From NCBI RefSeq assembly GCF_900115205.1, contig NZ_FOYQ01000001.1:1329240-1393239 (forward strand): a DNA stretch of 64,000 nt. The letters are read 5' to 3'. How positions within the stretch are numbered: the first letter of the stretch is position 1; every line of letters begins with the position of its first letter. Of the stretch, positions 36,595 to 46,378 are shown one piece after another. Below the pieces are notes generated by a model that saw only the letters and a list, made by a program, of their open reading frames with translations, was not told the origin of the DNA and ran no database searches. This stretch comes from Robiginitalea myxolifaciens. Its GTDB lineage: Bacteria; Bacteroidota; Bacteroidia; Flavobacteriales; Flavobacteriaceae. The position numbers were made by a program, and so were the translations under genes.

Positions 36595-36638
36595 GTAACA
36601 AAAGTCACCAAAGACCAGTAGCGGAGTTAGTAATTTTG
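36595..36638 (+). promoter_or_regulatory. Crp/Fnr-like dyad plus -7 element before DUF983-crp-sulP operon
   Basis: GTAAC-AAAA-GTCAC (36595-36608; centre 36601.5) is followed by TAATTTTG (36631-36638), a full match to the Bacteroidota -7 consensus TAnnTTTG. The dyad centre lies 29.5 nt upstream of the -7 element's first base, which puts the dyad about 42 nt before the likely transcription start. That is the class II activator position. The same spacing recurs at 39.4 and 44.07 kb. Confidence 0.75.
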
Positions 36639-36655
36639 CACTTTAAGAATTCACT

Positions 36656-37048
36656 ATGTTAGGCAAAGGCTCCAAACTCTACAGCATCTTACGATTAAAA
36701 TGTCCACAATGTCATCAGGGGGCCTTCCTGCAGGGACACCCCTATAACCTGTCCAAGATCAACCGGGTAAGAAACAGCTGCCCGAATTGCGGACTGAAAT
36801 ATAAGATAGAGCCCAGCTTCTACTACGGGTCAATGTATGTTTCCTACGGGGTCGGTGTCGCTGTAGGAATCGCAGTCTTTGTGCTAATCCGTATTTTTGG
36901 GTTGGAGTTGAGTACCGGAGAAACTTTCGCAGCTATAGTTGCGGCACTGGTTTTGTTAATGCCCTGGATCGGAGCCGTTTCCAAGGTAATCTGGGCAAAC
37001 TTCTTTTTTAAGTACGATCCCAGTACATCGAAAAGCATAAAACGGTGA
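36656..37048 (+). CDS. DUF983 family zinc-ribbon membrane protein
   Basis: 130 aa. Two CxxC pairs (CPQC and CPNC, residues about 18-44) form a probable zinc ribbon, followed by two membrane helices (about 62-85 and 92-112). The role of DUF983 proteins is unknown. It is the first gene of an operon with the Crp-like regulator (the next start is GTG at 37045 overlapping the TGA by 4 bp). Confidence 0.85.
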   Translation: MLGKGSKLYSILRLKCPQCHQGAFLQGHPYNLSKINRVRNSCPNCGLKYKIEPSFYYGSMYVSYGVGVAVGIAVFVLIRIFGLELSTGETFAAIVAALVLLMPWIGAVSKVIWANFFFKYDPSTSKSIKR

Positions 37049-37677
37049 TACAAGAACTCAAAGCCGGGTATGGCGACCAATTCGAAGCGGCCCTGATTCA
37101 GGAAATCGCTCAGGTTGGCACCTTCAGGGATGTTCCGGAAGGTTCCAAACTCATTGAAATTGGGGAGTACATCAAAGGGATGCCACTGCTGATATCCGGC
37201 GTAATCAAGGTAATGCGGGAGGATCCCGACGGGGACGAACTCCTGTTGTACTATCTGGAACAGGGCGACACCTGTTCCATGACCATGAGTTGTTGTATGG
37301 GACAAACCCGTTCCGAAATCCGTGCGGTAGCTGAAACCGATGTACGGTTGATTATGATTCCTGTTCGCAAAATGGAAGAGTGGACGGCAAAGTATCGGTC
37401 CTGGAGGAATTTTGTCTTTGACAGCTACAACACCCGACTCAATGAAATGCTCCATGCGATAGACAGCATCGCTTTTTTGAATATGGACGAACGCCTGATC
37501 AATTACTTACGGGAAAAGGCCCGGGTTAATCAGGACAACACCCTGCACAGCACGCATCAGCAAATCGCGTATGACCTGCACAGTTCGCGTGTGGTCATTT
37601 CCAGGTTGTTGAAAAAACTGGAGAACCTGGGAAAAATAGAACTGCACCGCAACCATATTGAGATCCTGGAACTGTGA
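37045..37677 (+). CDS. Crp/Fnr family transcriptional regulator with C-x5-CC motif
   Basis: 210 aa from a GTG start overlapping the previous stop (GTGA). The N-terminal cNMP-binding β-roll (about 15-115) and C-terminal winged HTH (about 167-195: HQQIAYDLHSSRVVISRLLKKL) are clear. Cys77, Cys83 and Cys84 sit in DTCSMTMSCCMG, close to where the effector pocket would be. That is suggestive of redox or sulfane-sulfur sensing but not shown. The gene overlaps SulP by 4 bp (GTGA). Its own operon and two other sulfur promoters carry GTAAC-N4-GT(T/C)AC dyads at fixed spacing, so it is the obvious candidate activator and autoregulator. Confidence 0.9.
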   Translation: MIQELKAGYGDQFEAALIQEIAQVGTFRDVPEGSKLIEIGEYIKGMPLLISGVIKVMREDPDGDELLLYYLEQGDTCSMTMSCCMGQTRSEIRAVAETDVRLIMIPVRKMEEWTAKYRSWRNFVFDSYNTRLNEMLHAIDSIAFLNMDERLINYLREKARVNQDNTLHSTHQQIAYDLHSSRVVISRLLKKLENLGKIELHRNHIEILEL

Positions 37678-39404
37678 AGAAGTTTTTCCCCATCCTGCAG
37701 TGGTTACCCACCTACAAACGCTCGGATTTACCCGGGGATCTTTCGGCTGGCCTGACTGTAGGGATTATGCTTATCCCCCAGGGTATGGCCTATGCCATGA
37801 TTGCCGGCCTGCCTCCTGTTTTTGGACTTTATGCAGGCCTGGTTCCACAAATTATCTATGCCCTGACCGGCACCTCGCGCCAACTGGCCGTGGGCCCTGT
37901 TGCCATGGATTCCCTCCTGGTGGCAGCCGGATTGGGCGCACTGGCCTTATCGGGTATCGAGGAGTATATTGCCATGGCCATTTTTCTCGCGCTGTTCATG
38001 GGGGTGCTGCAACTCGCTTTCGGACTGCTGAGAATGGGTTTTCTGGTCAATTTTCTCTCCCGTCCGGTTATTAGCGGGTTTACTTCGGCAGCTGCCATCA
38101 TTATCGGATTGAGCCAACTCAAACATCTGCTGGGTACTGAAATCGCCAGTAGCAATCAAATACACAAACTCCTTAGCAATGCCTTTGAATCCCTGGGCGA
38201 CACCAATGCCCTGAGTCTTGGGATAGGATTAGCGGGAATAGCTTTAATCTGGGGGTTAAAGCGGCTTGCCCCCCGAGCTCCTGGCGCCCTTATTTCCGTG
38301 GTGCTTGGAATCGTACTCGTGTATTTTCTGGGATTGGCCGATAAGGGAGTTAGCATTGTTGGGGCCGTTCCTGCAGGCCTCCCCGGGTTTGTCTTGCCTG
38401 AGTTGCCCTGGGACCGGGTATCTGAACTATTTCCCATAGCGCTCACCCTTGCCCTAATTGCATTTATGGAAGCTATTTCTGTAGCGAAAGCCGTGGAAGA
38501 ACGGCGGGGCGAAAAGCAGGTAGATGCCAACCAGGAACTCGTAGCCCTTGGCCTTTCGAATATGGTGGGCTCTCTTTTTCAATCCTATCCGGTAACCGGA
38601 GGGTTTTCCCGCACTGCGGTGAGCGATCAGGCCGGAGCGAGGACAGGAATGACTTCCCTGATAAGTAGTTTGTTGGTAGGGCTTACCTTATTGTTCCTGA
38701 CCCCAGTATTTTATTACCTGCCCAATGCTGTGCTGGCAGCGATCATTATGGTAGCGGTATTCGGGCTTATTGATTTGAAGTACCCCCGCCAATTATGGAA
38801 AGATCGCAAGGATGAATTTGCCTTATTGCTTCTGACCTTTGCGATAACGCTTGGCCTGGGAATTCGGGAGGGAATCTTGCTGGGTGTGCTCTTTTCGCTT
38901 TTGCTGTTGGTATATCGGATATCGAATCCACATATTGCAGTTTTGGGGAGGATTCGCGGAACGGATTACTTCAAGAATATCAACCGCTTTGCCGAAGACA
39001 TCGAAGAGTTCCCAGAGTACCTGATCCTTCGCTTCGACGGGCAGTTGTTTTTTGGCAATCAGGAGTACTTCCGCTCCCAGTTGCGCAAACGCATTCAGGC
39101 GAAAGGCCCTCAACTGAAATTCATAATCCTCAATGCGGAGGCCATTAATTACATTGATTCTTCCGCGGTATTTATGCTGCGTTCACTTCTCAGGGATTTG
39201 AATCAAAAAGGCATACGCCTGATGATTGCTGGCGCCATAGGTCCCACCCGCGATATTTTACGAAGTAGCGGGCTCCTCGAGGAAATAGGTCCGGAAAACC
39301 TCTTTGTCAGGACTTTTGAAGCCTTCGAGTGCTGTCGGAATACAGCTGAGAAATCGGAAGTACAACGCAGGATTTCTACACAGACCTCCGCTTCACGCAT
39401 GTAA
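37674..39404 (+). CDS. SulP family anion transporter with STAS domain
   Basis: 576 aa starting at GTG (37674), overlapping the regulator by 4 bp. The N-terminal DLSAGLTVGIMLIPQGMAYA signature and about a dozen membrane segments precede a C-terminal STAS domain (EAINYIDSSAVFMLRSLL). SulP proteins move sulfate, bicarbonate or other anions. The context with sulfide- and sulfite-oxidising enzymes makes sulfate the favoured substrate, by inference. Direction of transport cannot be read. Confidence 0.88.
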   Translation: MKKFFPILQWLPTYKRSDLPGDLSAGLTVGIMLIPQGMAYAMIAGLPPVFGLYAGLVPQIIYALTGTSRQLAVGPVAMDSLLVAAGLGALALSGIEEYIAMAIFLALFMGVLQLAFGLLRMGFLVNFLSRPVISGFTSAAAIIIGLSQLKHLLGTEIASSNQIHKLLSNAFESLGDTNALSLGIGLAGIALIWGLKRLAPRAPGALISVVLGIVLVYFLGLADKGVSIVGAVPAGLPGFVLPELPWDRVSELFPIALTLALIAFMEAISVAKAVEERRGEKQVDANQELVALGLSNMVGSLFQSYPVTGGFSRTAVSDQAGARTGMTSLISSLLVGLTLLFLTPVFYYLPNAVLAAIIMVAVFGLIDLKYPRQLWKDRKDEFALLLLTFAITLGLGIREGILLGVLFSLLLLVYRISNPHIAVLGRIRGTDYFKNINRFAEDIEEFPEYLILRFDGQLFFGNQEYFRSQLRKRIQAKGPQLKFIILNAEAINYIDSSAVFMLRSLLRDLNQKGIRLMIAGAIGPTRDILRSSGLLEEIGPENLFVRTFEAFECCRNTAEKSEVQRRISTQTSASRM

Positions 39405-39444
39405 CCTAGGTCACTGACACGCGCCGTTTCACGCCTTACTTTTA
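39401..39444 (+). promoter_or_regulatory. Crp/Fnr-like dyad plus -7 element before persulfide dioxygenase gene
   Basis: GTAAC-CTAG-GTCAC (39401-39414; centre 39407.5) overlaps the SulP stop codon. TACTTTTA (39437-39444) matches TAnnTTTG at all but the last position. Spacing from the centre to the first base is 29.5 nt, identical to the 36.6 and 44.07 kb sites. Confidence 0.7.
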
Positions 39445-39470
39445 CCCTGTAACTTTTAAAGAATATCATC

Positions 39471-40880
39471 ATGAATATAGAGCAGATATATACCGGCTGC
39501 CTGGCACAAGGAGCATATTATATTGAGAGCAAGGGAGAGGTAGCCATAATTGATCCGCTGCGCGAAGTTCAACCCTATATCGAAAGGGCACAGAAGGACG
39601 GGGCCACGATCAAATACATCTTTGAAACCCATTTTCACGCCGATTTTGTCAGTGGTCACCTTACCCTTTCAAAGGAAACCGGAGCACCAATTGTTTATGG
39701 CCCCCTGGCCAATCCACAATTCGAAGCCATTATCGCTGAGGACGGCCAGGAATTCCAGCTAGGGGACCTGACCCTGGTAGCTCTGCACACTCCGGGGCAC
39801 ACCATGGAAAGCACAACGTATTTACTTCGGGACGCAGATGGAAATGACCATGCAATTTTTAGTGGAGACACCCTGTTCTTAGGCGATGTGGGGAGGCCCG
39901 ACCTTGCCCAGAAAGCTGCTGACATGACCCAGGAGGAATTAGCGGGAATCCTGTTTGACAGCCTGCGCAGCAAGATCATGCCCCTGGCCGACGAGGTGAT
40001 CGTTTATCCGGCCCACGGTGCTGGTTCTGCCTGTGGTAAGAATATGATGAAAGAAACCGTGGACACCCTCGGTAATCAGAAAAACACCAACTATGCCTTA
40101 CGGGCCGACATGAGCCGGGAGGAATTCATTGCTGAGGTTACGGAAGGCCTGCTTCCCCCTCCCCAGTATTTCCCCCTGAATGTTAAAATGAACAAGGAAG
40201 GCTACGCTGATGTAGATGATGTGATCGAGCGAGGTACCCAGGCGCTCAGCCCGGCTGCTTTTGAGGCTGCCGCCAATGAAACGGGAGCCATTGTGCTCGA
40301 CGTTCGCGATAAGGATGCCTTTGCGGCTGGCCACATTCCGCGATCTATTTTCATAGGTCTAGACGGCAGCTTTGCTCCTTGGGTAGGCGCCCTGGTAGCC
40401 GACACCCAGCAGCCTATACTTTTGCTGGCACCAGAGGGTAAGGAGGAAGAAGCAGTAATCCGACTTTCCCGTGTTGGGTTCGACAATACCCTGGGGTATC
40501 TTAAAGGCGGATTTAAAGCCTGGACCGAAGCTTCTAAGGAGTACGATACGCTGAGCCGGATTTCAGCCGCGGACCTCAAGGAGCTCATGGCGTCCGAGGA
40601 AGCCCACGTATTTGATGTGCGCAAGGAAAGTGAATTTCTTTCGGAGCATTTGGTGACGGCCGAAAACACCCCGCTGGACTATTTGAATGACCACCTGAGT
40701 CAATTTTCGGATTCCACAACGAATTACATCCACTGTGCCAGCGGCTATCGCAGTGCTATTGCGGGATCCATTCTGAAAAGTCGCGGCATTCACAACATCG
40801 TAGATATTGCAGGAGGCTTTGAAGCGCTCAAAGAAAACGGTTTGGAAGTAAGTGATTACGTATGTCCTTCAACGCTCTAA
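39471..40880 (+). CDS. MBL-fold persulfide dioxygenase-like protein fused to two rhodanese domains
   Basis: 469 aa. An N-terminal ETHE1-like MBL domain has H54-F-H56-A-D58-F59 with H63, and GDTLFLGDVGRPDL. Two rhodanese domains follow. The first (about 262-355) has ILLLAPEGKEEEA where an active-site Cys loop is expected, so it is probably inactive. The second has HCASGYRS with catalytic Cys422. Family knowledge: oxidises glutathione or other persulfides to sulfite, with the rhodanese delivering or removing sulfane sulfur. The likely operon continues into the periplasmic rhodanese (TAATG overlap). Confidence 0.88.
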   Translation: MNIEQIYTGCLAQGAYYIESKGEVAIIDPLREVQPYIERAQKDGATIKYIFETHFHADFVSGHLTLSKETGAPIVYGPLANPQFEAIIAEDGQEFQLGDLTLVALHTPGHTMESTTYLLRDADGNDHAIFSGDTLFLGDVGRPDLAQKAADMTQEELAGILFDSLRSKIMPLADEVIVYPAHGAGSACGKNMMKETVDTLGNQKNTNYALRADMSREEFIAEVTEGLLPPPQYFPLNVKMNKEGYADVDDVIERGTQALSPAAFEAAANETGAIVLDVRDKDAFAAGHIPRSIFIGLDGSFAPWVGALVADTQQPILLLAPEGKEEEAVIRLSRVGFDNTLGYLKGGFKAWTEASKEYDTLSRISAADLKELMASEEAHVFDVRKESEFLSEHLVTAENTPLDYLNDHLSQFSDSTTNYIHCASGYRSAIAGSILKSRGIHNIVDIAGGFEALKENGLEVSDYVCPSTL

Positions 40881-41395
40881 TGCGCGCAGTTAAAATAATT
40901 AGCCCTGCCGGGATCTTCCTGGCGGGGTTACTTGCGTTTAGTGGGGCAGCTGCCCAGGATTCAATAACAAACTCCAGATATGCGCGTATGTTGGAACGTT
41001 TATTGTCCCACGATGTCCCGGAAATTAATGTACCGTCGGTCGCCAGTTTAGAAAACCCCATTTTTCTCGACACCCGTAGTGGGGAGGAATTCGCGGTAAG
41101 CCACCTGGAAGGAGCTGTTTGGGCAGGATATAAGGAGTTTTCACTGGAACGCCTGAACCACATCCCAAAAGACCGGCCAATGGTTGTTTACTGTTCTGTG
41201 GGGTATCGCAGTGAAAAAGTTACCGCTCTATTGCAGGAAGCGGGATTTCAAAATACCTATAACCTTTATGGGGGCATTTTTGAATGGGTGAATCAGGGCA
41301 AGCCAGTGGTCGACCGCAACGGCCCTACCGGGAGAGTTCACGGGTACAATTGGTTCTGGGGTCGCTGGTTGACTAAAGGCGAAGTCGTGTATTAA
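40880..41395 (+). CDS. Exported rhodanese-domain sulfurtransferase
   Basis: 171 aa from the ATG at 40880, which overlaps the preceding stop as TAATG; a start six codons upstream (40862) is possible. The signal peptide ends near SGAAAQ. A single rhodanese domain has the active-site loop CSVGYRS. Predicted periplasmic persulfide carrier or thiosulfate:acceptor sulfurtransferase. It is convergent with the sterol-desaturase-like gene. Confidence 0.85.
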   Translation: MRAVKIISPAGIFLAGLLAFSGAAAQDSITNSRYARMLERLLSHDVPEINVPSVASLENPIFLDTRSGEEFAVSHLEGAVWAGYKEFSLERLNHIPKDRPMVVYCSVGYRSEKVTALLQEAGFQNTYNLYGGIFEWVNQGKPVVDRNGPTGRVHGYNWFWGRWLTKGEVVY

Positions 41396-41402
41396 AACCG
41401 CA

Positions 41403-42284
41403 CTAACCCTTATTGGAACGCGGGGAAAATCCATAGGTATTCTGCCCTACGAAATCCTTTGGAAAACCTTCATCTCCAGGAAATCCAATAGGGATGGTTC
41501 CGCTATCTTCCGGAATGTAATTGGTGCCAAACAGATAGTCCCATAAACTCAGGCTAATCCCAAAATTCACCCCGTACTTACCCTCAGGTAAATGGTAGGC
41601 GTGGTGGTACAGGTGCATTACCGGATTGTTGAAGACATATTTCAATGGCCCCCAGGTAAGCTTGATATTCGCGTGGTTCAAATGGCCAATAGCAATTGCG
41701 GTAAAATGGACGATATAGGCTTGTTCGGGCTCAAATCCTCCCAGGATCATTACCCCAAATGTTTTGAGGGGCTTATAGAGCACATTTTCCATCCAATGAT
41801 ACCGAAGGTGGGCTGCAAAGCCCATTTCTTTTACGCTGTGGTGCACTTTGTGAAACTGCCAGAGGAAGGAATACTTATGCAGGAGGATATGCGTAAACCA
41901 CTGCACAAAATCTAGGATTACGAAAAAGACCAGTAACTGGACCCACATGGGCCATGCCTGAATATCCACTAGGGCCAGACTTCGCGCCGTGATCCCGAAT
42001 TCGGAAAACAGGACTTCGAGCATTTTGTAGAAGCCACTGATAACGATGGCAAAGACAAAGAAGTTAAAAAACATATATCCGGCATCTAGCCAGAAGTCTT
42101 TCCGGAATATGGATTGGTTTTTCCTCCAGGGAAAGACAATTTCCAACCCCCAGACCACCAGGGAGATGACGATAAGCCCCCAGAAGTAATTCGTATACCA
42201 GGGCACTTCCAATAGAATGGATTTCCAGGTCCAGTTTATCGTCCCGTTTAAAGCATTTACAAAGGCGTTCCAGTACTGTTCCAT
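41403..42284 (-). CDS. Fatty acid hydroxylase / sterol desaturase superfamily membrane protein
   Basis: 293 aa with about four membrane helices and the superfamily His clusters: H132-x3-H136, H145-x2-HH, H201-x2-H204 and H224-x2-HH-x2-H231. These bind a di-iron centre that hydroxylates or desaturates a lipid. It is the last gene of the cytochrome-molybdoenzyme operon (6-bp gap after the cytochrome). Its link to sulfur metabolism is unexplained; a lipid or quinone modification is one guess. Substrate unknown. Confidence 0.85.
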   Translation of the reverse strand: MEQYWNAFVNALNGTINWTWKSILLEVPWYTNYFWGLIVISLVVWGLEIVFPWRKNQSIFRKDFWLDAGYMFFNFFVFAIVISGFYKMLEVLFSEFGITARSLALVDIQAWPMWVQLLVFFVILDFVQWFTHILLHKYSFLWQFHKVHHSVKEMGFAAHLRYHWMENVLYKPLKTFGVMILGGFEPEQAYIVHFTAIAIGHLNHANIKLTWGPLKYVFNNPVMHLYHHAYHLPEGKYGVNFGISLSLWDYLFGTNYIPEDSGTIPIGFPGDEGFPKDFVGQNTYGFSPRSNKG

Positions 42285-42290
42285 AATGGG

Positions 42291-42797
42291 TTAGTCGCTT
42301 GATTCTTCCAAAACATACCATTCAATATCTGCAAGGTTGGCCCTGCGACCGGTATCTTCCGGTGCATAATTAGCGGCCAGATAATCGAGGATTATCGCTT
42401 CATTATTGCCGAGATCCCATAATTTCTGGGTCTCCTGCATCCAGCGAATGGTAGCTTCCCATCCCTCCCGGGTCATCCGGTTCTGGGTGACCAGTTTGGC
42501 CGAATGACAATTGGTGCAATTGTTCACCACCGTCATCAGCCCCTCTGCTTCCACAAACCCCGTGCGAAGATGGATGCCATTTTCAATGGCGTCATAATCT
42601 GCATCCACAAGTCCCTGATCCAAGCTGTCCTGGACGTTGACTACGGAAGCTGGCCTGGCGGATTGGAAAGAAGATAAGTCCGGATCAAAAAGCACAAACA
42701 AGAGCACCCCGCTAATGGCTAGGAACAACAGAACGATCATCCGCATCATCGTGCGAACCTCCCGGAAACTCTTCTCGAATGAATGCTTATCGGACAT
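42291..42797 (-). CDS. Monohaem cytochrome c, probable sulfite dehydrogenase electron acceptor
   Basis: 168 aa with an N-terminal membrane anchor (MRMIVLLFLAISGVLLFVLF) and one haem motif C94-T-N-C97-H98. The segment after it (LVTQNRMTREGWEATIRWM) is characteristic of the small cytochromes that accompany sulfite-oxidising molybdoenzymes; Met108 or Met120 could be the sixth haem ligand. Start ATG 42797 overlaps the predicted ancestral TAA of the molybdoenzyme by one base (TAATG), implying translational coupling. Confidence 0.85.
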   Translation of the reverse strand: MSDKHSFEKSFREVRTMMRMIVLLFLAISGVLLFVLFDPDLSSFQSARPASVVNVQDSLDQGLVDADYDAIENGIHLRTGFVEAEGLMTVVNNCTNCHSAKLVTQNRMTREGWEATIRWMQETQKLWDLGNNEAIILDYLAANYAPEDTGRRANLADIEWYVLEESSD

Positions 42798-42853
42798 TAG
42801 CTAACCTTTATCGCAATTCTATGGCAGGCGTTGTTGAGGTAGCCCTTGGGATT

Positions 42854-44017
42854 CTAGCCCGGTAAGACCATGGGCTGTGCGTTGCCCTGACTGTCGGTAG
42901 CCCGCACCCATAATTCGTAATACCCTTTTTTCGGGAACTGTGCCGAGCCCTGGAAGCGTTGCCAGGCAAGTCGATTCGCTGGAGCCTTCACAGAACAGCC
43001 TTGCCAGGTGGCCCCAAAATCGATTGAGTATTCCATGCTTTTTACCGTGAGTTCACCGGCCCATGCATGGCCGCGAAAATTCAAGGCTTTGCCCAGTGGC
43101 AAGGTGGCACCGGTTTTCGGATAGGTAATCAGGGACTTTACGGGCATGGATTCTATGATACACATATCCTCATTGGCAACTTTTTCGCCCGGGGCAACAG
43201 GCTCGCAGGGCACCCGGTAGGAAGAACCCGTCATTTTTTCCCCATCGTGCACAATGTTGCGCACACTTAAGCGGTTGAGCCATTTTCCGGAAGCGGAAGC
43301 GGGCCAACCCCCGGCTACCAGACGCAGTGGAAAACCATGGGCCAGAGGAATGTCCTTTCCATTCATTTGAAAGGCCACCAGGGTTTCATCCTGAAGGGCT
43401 TTGGCTATAGGGACCCCCCGAGAGATAGGTTCCAGCTCCGGGGCGCCACTCAAATGCGTGTCGGCGGCATGATACCCAATATATACCGCCTCGTCGGTGA
43501 TTCCCACATCCTCCAGGATATCCCTAAGGCGTACGCCAGTCCAGGTGGCACAGGAAACAGCCCCAACAGTCCATTGATTCCCCTTGGCAGGGGGGTTGAA
43601 CTCGCTACGGCCGTTACCACCACATTCCAGGGTTAATTGATAGGTGTATCGGGGGAACCTGGATTTAAGGGCTTCCAAGGAATAGGTTTTGGGAGCTTGC
43701 ACCGCCTCCCCATCTATGGTAAGCGACCAGGTATTCAGGTCTATTCCTTCGGGAATTTTTCCATTGTTCCGGATAAACATGAATTTATTCGGGGTAATGG
43801 CGTCGTCTAACAAATGGGCCTTGGCTTCGATATTCCAGGGTTTGTCGTTTAAGACCGTCATCCCCGGGTCTTTGTCGAAAAGTTTGAAGGGATCGGGATC
43901 CTGCAGGCCTAATAATGGCAAGCCTTCGGGCAGGTTGGCACCGTAGACGATCTCGGTCCCCAATAAGGCCGCCAGGGAGGCGAGGCCCGACCGGCGAACA
44001 AATTGACGTCTTTTCAT
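42854..44017 (-). CDS. SorA/SoxC-like sulfite dehydrogenase molybdoenzyme, truncated by an in-frame TAG
   Basis: 387 aa as annotated. A Tat signal (RRQFVRR, residues 3-9) is followed by a molybdopterin-binding domain with the Mo-ligand Cys132 (ECGGNGRS), then the Mo-co dimerisation domain. The protein ends in QPMVLPG at a TAG (42854-42856). Beyond it the same frame reads NPKGYLNNACHRIAIKVS, then TAA at 42797-42799, overlapping the cytochrome ATG. Homologues have Trp at the TAG position (WNxxG...NAxHR), so this is most simply a TGG-to-TAG change, giving a 406-aa ancestral protein. A sequencing error or readthrough are alternatives. Predicted periplasmic oxidation of sulfite to sulfate with electrons to cytochrome c. 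Confidence 0.88.
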   Translation of the reverse strand: MKRRQFVRRSGLASLAALLGTEIVYGANLPEGLPLLGLQDPDPFKLFDKDPGMTVLNDKPWNIEAKAHLLDDAITPNKFMFIRNNGKIPEGIDLNTWSLTIDGEAVQAPKTYSLEALKSRFPRYTYQLTLECGGNGRSEFNPPAKGNQWTVGAVSCATWTGVRLRDILEDVGITDEAVYIGYHAADTHLSGAPELEPISRGVPIAKALQDETLVAFQMNGKDIPLAHGFPLRLVAGGWPASASGKWLNRLSVRNIVHDGEKMTGSSYRVPCEPVAPGEKVANEDMCIIESMPVKSLITYPKTGATLPLGKALNFRGHAWAGELTVKSMEYSIDFGATWQGCSVKAPANRLAWQRFQGSAQFPKKGYYELWVRATDSQGNAQPMVLPG

Positions 44018-44041
44018 GGGTAGCTGTGGCTAATTGAGTTC

Positions 44042-44115
44042 TAAACATACTAGTTTTTATTCAGTACTAGTGTAACCAGGGTTACAAGAATTGATCAAAC
44101 CGAGCTGTAAATTTG
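44042..44115. promoter_or_regulatory. Crp/Fnr-like dyad serving divergent SQR and sulfite dehydrogenase promoters
   Basis: GTAAC-CAGG-GTTAC (44072-44085; centre 44078.5) sits in the divergent gap. On the plus strand TAAATTTG (44108-44115) is a full -7 match, 29.5 nt from the centre. On the minus strand TATGTTTA (complement of 44042-44049) matches at all but the last position, also 29.5 nt from the centre. One dyad can therefore activate both directions at the same geometry. Confidence 0.78.
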
Positions 44116-44139: not shown

Positions 44140-45387
44140 ATGGATAAGCATTACGAAGTTCTAATAATAGGTGGTGGAACCGCCGGTATTATGACGGCAG
44201 CGAATCTGCTCCGCGCCGATCGCAACATAAAGGTTGGAATTATTGAACCTGCCGACACGCACTATTACCAGGCTGCCTGGACATTGGTTGGCGCTGGGAC
44301 CTATGATTATCAGAAAACGGCACGCCCTATGGCGTCGGTCATACCCAAGCGGGCTACCTGGATCAAAGATTCCGCAACAGGTTTCGATCCGGAAAACAAC
44401 CTTGTAAAGACCGCGAGTAGTGGCGACCTGACCTATGATTATTTGGTAGTGGCGCCCGGACTAACCTACGACATGGACTTGGTTCCCGGGCTGGCTGAGG
44501 TACTGGACAAGGATGTCGTTTGTAGTAATTATACGGATCCCGAGCACACCTGGAAACTGATTAAAAATTTCGAGGGAGGAACAGCACTCTTTACGCAACC
44601 CACTACCCCTTTAAAATGCGGCGGAGCTCCTCAGAAAATCATGTATCTGGCTGAGAGCCATTGGCGAAAGTCGCACGTCCGTGGGGCTTCTCAAGTGATC
44701 TTCGCTACCCCGGGAACCATTATTTTTGGAATTCCGCAAATAGCCCAGACGCTTATGAACGTGGTTGGACGTAAAGACATCAATCTTCGTTTTGGGTATA
44801 AACTGGTCAAGGTCGATGGGCCAAACCGCATTGCCTGGTACGAATTTGCTGATCACGAGAAGGAATACAACCACAAAGAAGTAAAAACCGAGAAGGACGG
44901 GAAGTTAACAGGGATTCATTACGATTTCATGCACACTGCACCTCCTTCGGTTGCCCCGGAATTCATCCGCAAATCTGTTTTAGCCAATGAGGCTGGCTGG
45001 CTGGAAGTCCATAAACACAGCTTGCAACATTTGCGGTATGCCAATATATTCGGCCTGGGTGATGTTGCGGCCTTACCGACGGCTAAGACTGGTGCTGCTG
45101 TTCGCAAGCAGGTTCCGGTTGTGGTGGAAAACCTCCAACTGATGCGTTCGCGAAATAGAATCGGAAGCAATGCCTACAATGGTTATTCCTCCTGCCCCAT
45201 CGTGACTGACTATGGTAAAATGGTGCTGGCCGAATTCGACTACGACAATAATTTTACACCGGATCCGAAGTTGAAACAATTGCTCATTTCCGATTCGGCA
45301 AAAGAACATTGGAGGCTCTGGATGCTTAAGAAGTACGGGCTCCCATATCTTTACTGGAATAAAATGCTGAAAGGCAAAGACGTCTAA
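44140..45387 (+). CDS. sqr: Sulfide:quinone oxidoreductase
   Basis: 415 aa FAD enzyme. GGGTAGIMTA near the N-terminus is the dinucleotide-binding loop. Cys160 (PLKCGGAPQK) and Cys352 (SCPIVTDYG) correspond to the redox-active pair of the mitochondrial-type SQR group; Cys128 is also conserved-looking. The C-terminus (KYGLPYLYW...KMLKG) is an amphipathic membrane anchor. It oxidises sulfide and passes electrons to quinone, forming persulfide or polysulfide. It heads an operon with the YeeE/YedE pair and is divergent from the sulfite dehydrogenase genes across a shared dyad. Confidence 0.92.
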   Translation: MDKHYEVLIIGGGTAGIMTAANLLRADRNIKVGIIEPADTHYYQAAWTLVGAGTYDYQKTARPMASVIPKRATWIKDSATGFDPENNLVKTASSGDLTYDYLVVAPGLTYDMDLVPGLAEVLDKDVVCSNYTDPEHTWKLIKNFEGGTALFTQPTTPLKCGGAPQKIMYLAESHWRKSHVRGASQVIFATPGTIIFGIPQIAQTLMNVVGRKDINLRFGYKLVKVDGPNRIAWYEFADHEKEYNHKEVKTEKDGKLTGIHYDFMHTAPPSVAPEFIRKSVLANEAGWLEVHKHSLQHLRYANIFGLGDVAALPTAKTGAAVRKQVPVVVENLQLMRSRNRIGSNAYNGYSSCPIVTDYGKMVLAEFDYDNNFTPDPKLKQLLISDSAKEHWRLWMLKKYGLPYLYWNKMLKGKDV

Positions 45388-45405: not shown

Positions 45406-45963
45406 ATGGATTGGATCTATGAACCCTGGCCCTGGTATGTTTCAGGTGCCGCTATTGCTTTTGTTATGCTGCTCTTGCTCCTTATGGGCAACAGCTTTGG
45501 AATGTCGGGAAACCTCCGAACTTTTTGTACACTCTGTGGGGCGGACAGGCATGCCGACTTTTTCAAGTTCGACTGGAAAGCACAACGCTGGAATCTCCTG
45601 GTTGCCCTGGGGGCAGTTATCGGAGGATTTTTAGCGTCAAATTACCTTACTGCTGACCCTGCAGTTGCCATCAGTGCCAATACAGTCAATGAATTGCAGA
45701 GCCTCGGGTTTGAAAGCGCCGGGTCGGCGTACTTGCCGGAGGAACTATTTGGCAGTGGAATCTGGAGTGATTTTAAAGCCCTTGGTTTGCTGGCAGTGGG
45801 AGGGTTCCTGGTTGGTTTTGGCGCCCGATATGCCGGGGGATGTACCTCTGGCCATGCCATTTCAGGCCTGAGTAACCTACAGTGGCCTTCCTTACTGGCG
45901 GTGATTGGCTTTTTCGCCGGTGGTATGATTATGATATACTTTTTGTTCCCCTTAATTTTTTGA
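45406..45963 (+). CDS. YeeE/YedE family protein, first half of a split transporter
   Basis: 185 aa with about five membrane segments. The family motif GARYAGGCTSGHAISG is present (the Cys-containing loop). YeeE/YedE proteins such as TsuA import thiosulfate by relaying it past conserved Cys residues. It is downstream of SQR (18-bp gap), with the second half following after one base. Confidence 0.88.
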   Translation: MDWIYEPWPWYVSGAAIAFVMLLLLLMGNSFGMSGNLRTFCTLCGADRHADFFKFDWKAQRWNLLVALGAVIGGFLASNYLTADPAVAISANTVNELQSLGFESAGSAYLPEELFGSGIWSDFKALGLLAVGGFLVGFGARYAGGCTSGHAISGLSNLQWPSLLAVIGFFAGGMIMIYFLFPLIF

Positions 45964-45964
45964 T

Positions 45965-46378
45965 ATGCGTAGTCTGGGTTATTTACTGATTGGAATATTT
46001 TTCGGGATTACCATGTTCAAATCCGAGGCCGCATCCTGGTTCCGGATTTATGAGATGTTTAAGTTCGACGCCTTCCATATGTATGGGATTATCGGTACCG
46101 CTGTGGGGATCGGGGTTGTGATGGTCTGGGTAATTAAGCGCTTCCGGGTACGGAGTTTTTATGGCACGCCCATTACGTTTGACAATAAGGAAACCAAGAT
46201 AGTTCGCTATGCGATGGGTGGATTGATTTTTGGTCTTGGCTGGGGCTTGGCCGGGGCTTGTCCAGGTCCGATATTCACCTTGGCCGGGGCTGGATATCTG
46301 CCGATTCTCGTGGTTTTGGCGGCGGCTATTCTCGGCACTTATGCCTACGGGTTGCTTCGCGACAAGCTACCCCACTAA
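45965..46378 (+). CDS. YeeE/YedE family protein, second half of a split transporter
   Basis: 137 aa with about four hydrophobic segments and the second family motif GLGWGLAGACPGP. It begins one base after the previous stop. The two halves probably form a complete YeeE-like pore. It is convergent with the TauE/SafE gene, with a 6-bp gap. Substrate, likely thiosulfate or another sulfur anion, is inferred from family and context. Confidence 0.88.
   Translation: MRSLGYLLIGIFFGITMFKSEAASWFRIYEMFKFDAFHMYGIIGTAVGIGVVMVWVIKRFRVRSFYGTPITFDNKETKIVRYAMGGLIFGLGWGLAGACPGPIFTLAGAGYLPILVVLAAAILGTYAYGLLRDKLPH

Follow-up and report, generated by a model that had tools for sequence, protein, structure and literature searches.

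A Crp-type regulator and promoter dyads at fixed distance appear to govern sulfide- and persulfide-oxidation genes in marine flavobacteria

Marine flavobacteria appear, to judge from comparison of their genomes, to turn on genes for sulfide and persulfide oxidation through a Crp-type protein whose dyad lies at a fixed distance from the promoter. The locus considered here belongs to a 64,000-nucleotide (nt) stretch of Robiginitalea myxolifaciens (contig NZ_FOYQ01000001.1, positions 1,329,240 to 1,393,239; hereafter the window, in whose coordinates features are given), and its proposed regulator, a member of the Crp/Fnr superfamily, is encoded at 37045-37677 on the plus strand. Three dyads of the form GTAAC-N4-GT(T/C)AC, to which no strand is assigned, stand beside its putative target operons: GTAAC-AAAA-GTCAC (GTAACAAAAGTCAC, 36595-36608), found by pattern search, before the operon of a DUF983 gene, the regulator and a SulP transporter; GTAAC-CTAG-GTCAC (GTAACCTAGGTCAC, 39401-39414), overlapping the SulP stop codon, before the persulfide dioxygenase (PDO) operon; and GTAAC-CAGG-GTTAC (GTAACCAGGGTTAC, 44072-44085), common to the two divergent promoters of the sulfide:quinone reductase (SQR) and sulfite dehydrogenase (SorA) operons. 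The first two of these are imperfect palindromes (GTAAC/GTCAC). Each dyad is accompanied by a -7 element, TAATTTTG at 36631-36638 and TACTTTTA at 39437-39444 on the plus strand for the first two operons, and, on either side of the third dyad, TAAATTTG at 44108-44115 (plus strand) for SQR and TATGTTTA at 44042-44049 (minus strand) for sulfite dehydrogenase; in two of the four the final base is A, not G. An earlier note on this DNA had placed these dyads and TAnnTTTG-like elements with every coordinate exact, and the equal spacing it described is likewise confirmed, the first base of all four elements lying 22 nt past the dyad end and 29.5 nt from the dyad centre. Very probably, these dyads are operators of the 37045 protein, which activates the promoters concerned. 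Conservation, genome-wide rate, co-occurrence and covariation all support the earlier proposal that it drives the PDO, SQR and sulfite dehydrogenase operons; we infer that the protein binds the dyads, that it activates and does not repress, and what its signal is.

The position of the dyads is that of a class II activator site. According to two studies, the Flavobacterium -7 box TAnnTTTG spans -12 to -5 (PMC9723704, PMC6847099); a spacing of 4 or 5 nt from box to start served in one of them as the criterion for a probable promoter (PMC6847099). A centre 29.5 nt from such a box therefore falls at -41.5, and arithmetic predicts leaders of 13 nt for DUF983, 22 nt for PDO and 20 nt each for SQR and SorA. 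In a set of 179 strict promoters, no two identical, the base ahead of the dyad, at -49, is T in 86%, and 57% have G at -33, so that the operator lies over the -33 region in class II-like fashion; a site centred at -41.5 relative to predicted starts, with a fixed 22 nt to the -7 box, is the arrangement of a class II activator-dependent promoter. In the mechanism that we propose, a dimer of the 37045 protein would bind TGTAAC-N4-GTTAC over the position of a -33 element and bring the housekeeping RNA polymerase of Bacteroidota to the -7 box downstream. It would thus drive its own DUF983-regulator-SulP operon, the PDO-rhodanese operon and a YgaP-like gene in another part of the genome, and one dyad would serve both the SQR-YeeE and the sulfite dehydrogenase operon, which diverge from it.

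That the dyads reflect chance or a general repeat has a negligible probability: we found no point in its favour, and counts in the window, genome, neighbourhoods, relatives, orthologue census and congeners all oppose it. The window holds four oriented matches to the dyad pattern against 0.07 expected, a number reached by none of 100 shuffles. Exact matches to GTAACNNNNGTYAC occupy eight distinct positions in the genome (3.20 megabases (Mb), 3 contigs), three in the window and five outside. One of these five, at C2:1106039, has on its minus strand a -7 element (TAATTTTA) 22 nt away and precedes, across a 34-amino-acid open reading frame (ORF), a YgaP-like transmembrane gene (PF11127 match) that we take to be sulfur-linked; the geometry of this operator region (L009:5632-6052, about 1105632-1106052 of G000:C2) is the same as that of the window operators. 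The remaining four lie inside ORFs, which are not proven genes, and no TA-N2-TT was found at 19-25 nt on either side of them. Equally spaced dyads at unrelated genes, which the earlier note had named as evidence that would speak against it, thus do not occur at the same rate, the only one of the five with a -7 element being that at the YgaP-like gene. The full signature, with up to two mismatches, matches the whole genome six times, against three for a reversed control pattern, and five of the six are the four window promoters and the YgaP-like gene promoter. The sixth, C2:1028550 (GTAACTCAGGGAAC, two mismatches), we judged a chance match: its second half-site is degenerate, and the match overlaps ORFs.

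The fixed distance extends well beyond this genome. Of the 149 family genomes, 124 have a regulator homologue (E<=1e-30). We took a single neighbourhood from each of 60 of these, all high on the list though not consecutive, 1.17 Mb in total. The neighbourhoods contain 143 distinct dyads, where first-order Markov sequence would give 1.2. The strict box TANNTTTG stands exactly 22 nt past the dyad on 66 of 274 oriented sides, and no other offset between 0 and 71 has it more than three times; where a TAHHTTTG box lies 18-26 nt from a symmetric GTAAC dyad, the distance is exactly 22 nt in 56/61 cases. This spacing bears on whether the 37045 protein could instead be a repressor that leaves its promoters under sulfide stress, as might be expected where persulfide sensing is typically the work of repressors (PMC6195638, PMC8148161). 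Repressor sites need no single spacing, whereas these dyads keep to the class II activator position and cover the -33 region, and we consider repression very improbable.

The dyads also follow the regulator from genome to genome. The strict signature for the family search, GTAACN4GTTAC-N20-24-TANNTTTG, has 224 matches in total, 221 of them in the 124 regulator-bearing genomes and three in the 25 others, against 14 for the reversed control pattern over all 149; at least one signature is present in 98/124 genomes with the regulator versus 2/25 without. The two exceptions, G088 and G147, are 87% and 73% complete. Tempering the comparison, many of the 25 regulator-less genomes are small or incomplete, and the nine of at least 2.6 Mb hold one signature. 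Seven proteins with a cNMP-binding domain are encoded in the R. myxolifaciens genome, four of them of Crp size (195-230 amino acids, the 37045 protein included), so that a different Crp-like protein might bind the dyads and the neighbour at 37045 be incidental. Signatures nevertheless track the 37045-type regulator, G050 and G096 lack both it and any signature yet yield 4 and 9 first-look candidates in the regulator search, and residue 183 of the homologues covaries with the operator; we regard another binder as very improbable. Co-occurrence together with this covariation of the recognition helix strengthens the link between the 37045 protein and the dyads.

The regulator's place in the Crp/Fnr superfamily is given by PF00027 (cNMP_binding; 39.7 bits, cut-off 27.5) and PF13545 (HTH_Crp_2; 35.5 bits, cut-off 27), and the predicted operator, GTAAC-N4-GTYAC, conserved at its targets, is a palindrome of the Crp/Fnr type, with two 5-base half-sites 4 bases apart. 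The protein falls far below the cut-off of the CRP equivalog NF008732 (52.3 bits versus 266), has only C77, C83 and C84 in place of the four cysteines of an FNR-type [4Fe-4S] protein, and does not preserve the cyclic AMP (cAMP) cassette in which E72 of CRP has its role, the family profile aligning M79 to that residue.

Its recognition helix (codons S181-K190, 37585-37614, plus strand) places V183 opposite E181 of Escherichia coli CRP, which sets base pair 7 of the half-site. We compared 119 homologues: 60 close ones, 20 of a sub-family II, and 8 V-type and 31 E-type distant ones, the last two from 39 of 40 distant neighbourhoods fetched, one without a regulator gene being left out. All 119 share the arginines at 182 and 187 and the lysine at 190. 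At residue 183, 59 of the close homologues have V and one has I; sub-family II has V in 20/20, and the distant neighbourhoods have V in 8 and E in 31. Among symmetric sites with a strict -7 box at 21-23 nt, close V-type loci have 70 GTAA/TTAC and 2 GTGA/TCAC, and distant V-type loci 5 and 1. Residue 183 thus covaries, incompletely, with the operator, V accompanying GTAA and E accompanying GTGA or hybrid sites. Fisher tests of operator type give p = 1.7e-7 for all V (sub-family II excluded) versus E and 0.026 for distant V versus E, values that are descriptive only because the loci are related. Three observations detract from the association: E-type loci have, beside 7 GTGA/TCAC sites (in 5/31 loci), 1 GTAA/TTAC site and 11 hybrids; 14/31 E-type loci come from one genus, which further limits the p values to description; and sub-family II has 7 GTGA/TCAC beside 14 GTAA/TTAC sites although its regulator has V183. 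Two loci of one genus, L313 and L318, supply 4 of the 7 E-type GTGA/TCAC sites. The claim of a clean V/E183 switch was softened when the recount revealed the 11 hybrids, which left our estimates as they were, the main reading depending on other findings. One locus, L310, encodes a paralogue of each type; a GTGAC dyad lies close to the E-type gene and a GTAAC dyad close to the V-type gene.

Two E-type loci (L313:10266, L318:9083) have GTGA-type dyads with a -7 element just ahead of a gene for peroxiredoxin, a hint that E-type regulators control a related regulon. In sub-family II (L214-L233) the operator of YeeE1, a YeeE gene, drifts: by eye, 17/19 begin with GTAACAWTT and 15/19 fit the full GTAACN4RTYAC, a rereading on which we dropped an initial 17/19 fit to GTAACAWTTATYAC. 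The regulator's own promoter in this sub-family has no such dyad and often lies beside an apparent tRNA gene.

Orthologous promoters of close relatives, whose comparison the earlier note had proposed as a check, retain the dyads. Eight loci were compared (L134-L140 and L143), six from Robiginitalea, with regulators of 76-83% identity, and two from metagenome-assembled genomes (L136, L137). The DUF983 dyad and its -7 element are present in 8/8, always in the GTAAC..GTCAC form, and those at the SulP-PDO junction in 7/8 (three exact, four with one mismatch); in L139 the junction dyad was looked for and not found. Seven of the eight (L134-L140) have a tandem second PDO gene, preceded in 7/7 by an exact dyad with a -7 element; the first PDO gene of the tandem likewise has a dyad of its own, except in L139. 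The single PDO of the window is closer to the relatives' second (78-81% identity).

For SQR and SorA the search covered 9 further genomes of the genus, which may in part be of the same species as the eight loci. In every one the two genes are divergent and two dyads lie between them, each with a -7-like element 22 nt off for its own gene (9/9). L349, L352 and L353 show one mismatch in the SorA dyad, some -7 boxes are degenerate, and the SQR dyad begins 62-71 nt ahead of the SQR start. In the window a single dyad lies 68 nt from SQR on one side and 55 nt from SorA on the other, and the gene starts are 123 nt apart, versus 178-252 nt in the congeners. The sharing of one dyad by both operons that the earlier note proposed thus holds for the window, as a derived condition of this genome. 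On the simplest reading of these sequences, the shared dyad would be a fusion made by deletion, in which one dyad and the spacer were lost and both class II spacings kept. Few dyads elsewhere are flanked by two -7 boxes, one on each side (3/143, 9/245 and 1/55).

The genes behind such operators are mostly concerned with sulfide, persulfide, sulfite and sulfur transport. The 60 neighbourhoods yield 120 sites with a dyad and a -7 element; the gene that comes first after the site encodes PDO or rhodanese in 39 cases, TauE in 29, a TolC-like protein in 8, SQR in 6, the regulator and cytochrome c in 5 each, peroxiredoxin and DUF983 in 4 each, YeeE in 3, and cytochrome bd subunit I, SorA and SulP in 2 each, with 8 single cases and 3 sites without a gene; several of these names were assigned through Pfam on one member. 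Forty further stretches, picked among listed signature sites and lying outside the neighbourhoods except for L234 and L267, hold 52 sites, 11 of them before TolC-like genes and others before genes for DUF2892, thioredoxins, rhodaneses, a DsrE protein, PDO, SulP and fatty acid hydroxylases. We also took a census of orthologues (at least 40% identity, except for DUF2892; query start at or before 25; half the length covered; 220 nt upstream; dropped matches uncounted) in two sets, of 60 and 80 loci, with four regions common to both. A dyad with at most one mismatch and a -7 element precedes 30/41 and 81/88 PDO genes in the two sets respectively, 33/38 and 27/33 TauE, 8/9 and 15/17 SQR, 5/5 and 32/32 DUF983, 2/3 and 4/5 SorA, and 3/17 and 2/16 YeeE1 genes. 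With the dyad exact, the counts are 26/41 and 50/88 for PDO, 8/9 and 14/17 for SQR, 4/5 and 31/32 for DUF983, and 2/3 and 3/5 for SorA. Among other ORFs of at least 200 amino acids in the 60-locus set, 4/525 have an exact dyad with a -7 element and 13 any exact dyad.

Other results sit less easily with this model. Some of the far targets have no evident sulfur tie; YeeE1 promoters have an exact dyad in 10/17 and 12/16 cases, with a standard -7 element at 21-23 nt in 3/17 and 1/16; and a dyad (at most one mismatch) with a -7 element stands at the regulator's own start in 5/60 and 15/82. Start sites, binding and expression at this locus, moreover, are predictions. A general claim of autoregulation was rejected on the 5/60 and 15/82 counts; the earlier note's view that the regulator activates its own operon stands in the window, by way of the DUF983 promoter. 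In YeeE1 promoters such as L048:13367 and L051:13988 the dyad is kept and the -7 box lacks A at its second position (TTTCTTTG, TTTATTTG).

What the regulator might sense is suggested by its cysteines. C77 is conserved in 119, C83 in 117 and C84 in 94 of the 119 homologues, in a stretch (codons T76-C84, TCSMTMSCC; 37270-37296, plus strand) aligned to the cAMP cassette of CRP, where M79 lies opposite E72. Persulfide-sensing regulators have a conserved cysteine pair that reacts with persulfide; C77/C83 is conserved and may be such a pair. We lean towards a signal of persulfide or polysulfide, formed by SQR and read by C77 and C83 (with C84). This is argued from the conserved cysteines and the content of the regulon, its whole basis, which tells against it, and the thiol switch at the former cAMP cassette would be the least secure step of the model. 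In a reported sediment incubation, addition of NaHS was followed by a rise in sqr and pdo transcripts from several phyla, Bacteroidota among them (PMC12345210); this fits induction by sulfide and names no regulator. Alternatively, the regulon may be real and the 37045 protein sense a heme-bound gas, nitric oxide or the general redox state, which we think possible but rather unlikely. The heme ligand of CooA is a cysteine in a similar region, peroxiredoxin, thioredoxin and cytochrome bd genes are among the targets, and the best-scoring solved sequence for the regulator is 3dv8. This Eubacterium rectale structure was the template for a model of the heme-binding redox regulator PgRsp (PMC6955866). 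Opposing such a sensor are the predominance of sulfur genes among the targets and the identity of the conserved core, which is C77/C83; of the places that a CooA-type sensor would use, C77 is present and M79, at the place of the second ligand, is M in 89/119 homologues and in only 4/31 of the E-type.

The regulator resembles E. coli CRP in superfamily, helix-turn-helix type, a dyad centred at -41.5 (the class II site of CRP, which has GTGA half-sites) and the recognition-helix arginines, and differs from it in the V at CRP position 181, the GTAA half-sites, M79 opposite E72, the cysteines in the cAMP cassette and the Bacteroidota -7 element. The cyanobacterial regulator NtcA, whose sites are of the GTA-N8-TAC type, also has R-V in its recognition helix (STRVTVTR); it is a nitrogen regulator, and the NCBIfam NtcA model TIGR03697 gives the 37045 protein 40.7 bits against a cut-off of 244.95. 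CstR, SqrR, BigR and FisR belong to other families (CsoR, ArsR and sigma-54 activators), and the first three differ in being repressors. According to two reviews, they too control SQR/PDO-type genes by cysteine-based sensing (PMC9774590, PMC8148161), and FisR is an activator with three conserved cysteines (PMC9774590). PgRsp, of Porphyromonas gingivalis, is likewise a Bacteroidota Crp/Fnr protein modelled on 3dv8, and differs as a redox and virulence regulator that binds heme; the available text of its description has no sulfur-oxidation regulon (PMC6955866).

Sulfide- and persulfide-oxidation genes of Bacteroidota are already known (PMC12345210). In the open-access literature, mostly titles and abstracts, with subscription papers and regulon databases outside the search, we found no regulator for them, Crp-type included; in the accessible text of the reviews of bacterial sulfide sensing (PMC9774590, PMC8148161) the word Bacteroid is absent and mentions of Crp/Fnr concern other matters. 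We find it about evenly balanced whether these proteins form a Bacteroidota-wide branch of persulfide-sensing Crp/Fnr activators, marked by a C-x5-C(C) thiol switch and a V/E183 GTAA/GTGA shift, with a deletion-fused operator here. With operator, regulator, cysteine pair and specificity residue defined, sulfide sensing in Bacteroidota is open to direct test.

The genes of the locus were assigned as follows. On the plus strand, the first operon begins with a DUF983 membrane protein (36656-37048; PF06170, 25.2 bits, cut-off 22.6) and ends with a SulP-type anion transporter with a STAS domain (37674-39404; PF00916 and TIGR00815 over cut-off). The next is headed by an enzyme with metallo-beta-lactamase and two rhodanese domains by Pfam (39471-40880), from which we take the name PDO, and probably includes a rhodanese gene (40862-41395; Pfam, NF045521 over cut-off). 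On the minus strand, the SorA-like molybdopterin sulfite dehydrogenase (42854-44017; PF00174/PF03404, NF052245 204.7 bits, under the cut-off of 600) is accompanied by a small c-type cytochrome-like protein, so named from its sequence (42291-42797; CxxCH, PF09098 match under cut-off), the probable electron acceptor of the enzyme, and by a fatty acid hydroxylase-family membrane protein (41403-42284; PF04116), the probable third gene of the operon. The type III-like SQR (44140-45387, plus strand; Pyr_redox_2, NF049943 210.9 bits, under the cut-off of 525) precedes two halves of a YeeE/YedE (TsuA-like) sulfur transport system on the same strand, the first (45406-45963; PF04143) probably co-transcribed with SQR and the second (45965-46378) a weak match to NF052577 (20.9 bits, cut-off 400).

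Several genes recur behind the operator signature, which predicts fatty acid hydroxylase-like, TolC-like outer membrane and small secreted proteins as new pathway members. TolC-like outer membrane efflux proteins (PF02321, tested on L057 only) account for the 11/52 far and 8/120 near operators counted above, the far ones at L236, L237, L238, L240, L241, L248, L249, L258, L262, L267 and L270. Small proteins of about 120 amino acids, secreted by appearance, lie directly 3' of the operator in L244, L247, L256 and L271; that of L247, the one tested, has no Pfam match. The fatty acid hydroxylase-family membrane protein, part of the SorA operon in the window, has its own operator in L246, L255, L266 and L269. 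Cytochrome bd, a sulfide-tolerant type of oxidase, is represented by subunit I genes directly after the operator at L045:187-1539 (PF01654) and, alike by eye, in L252.

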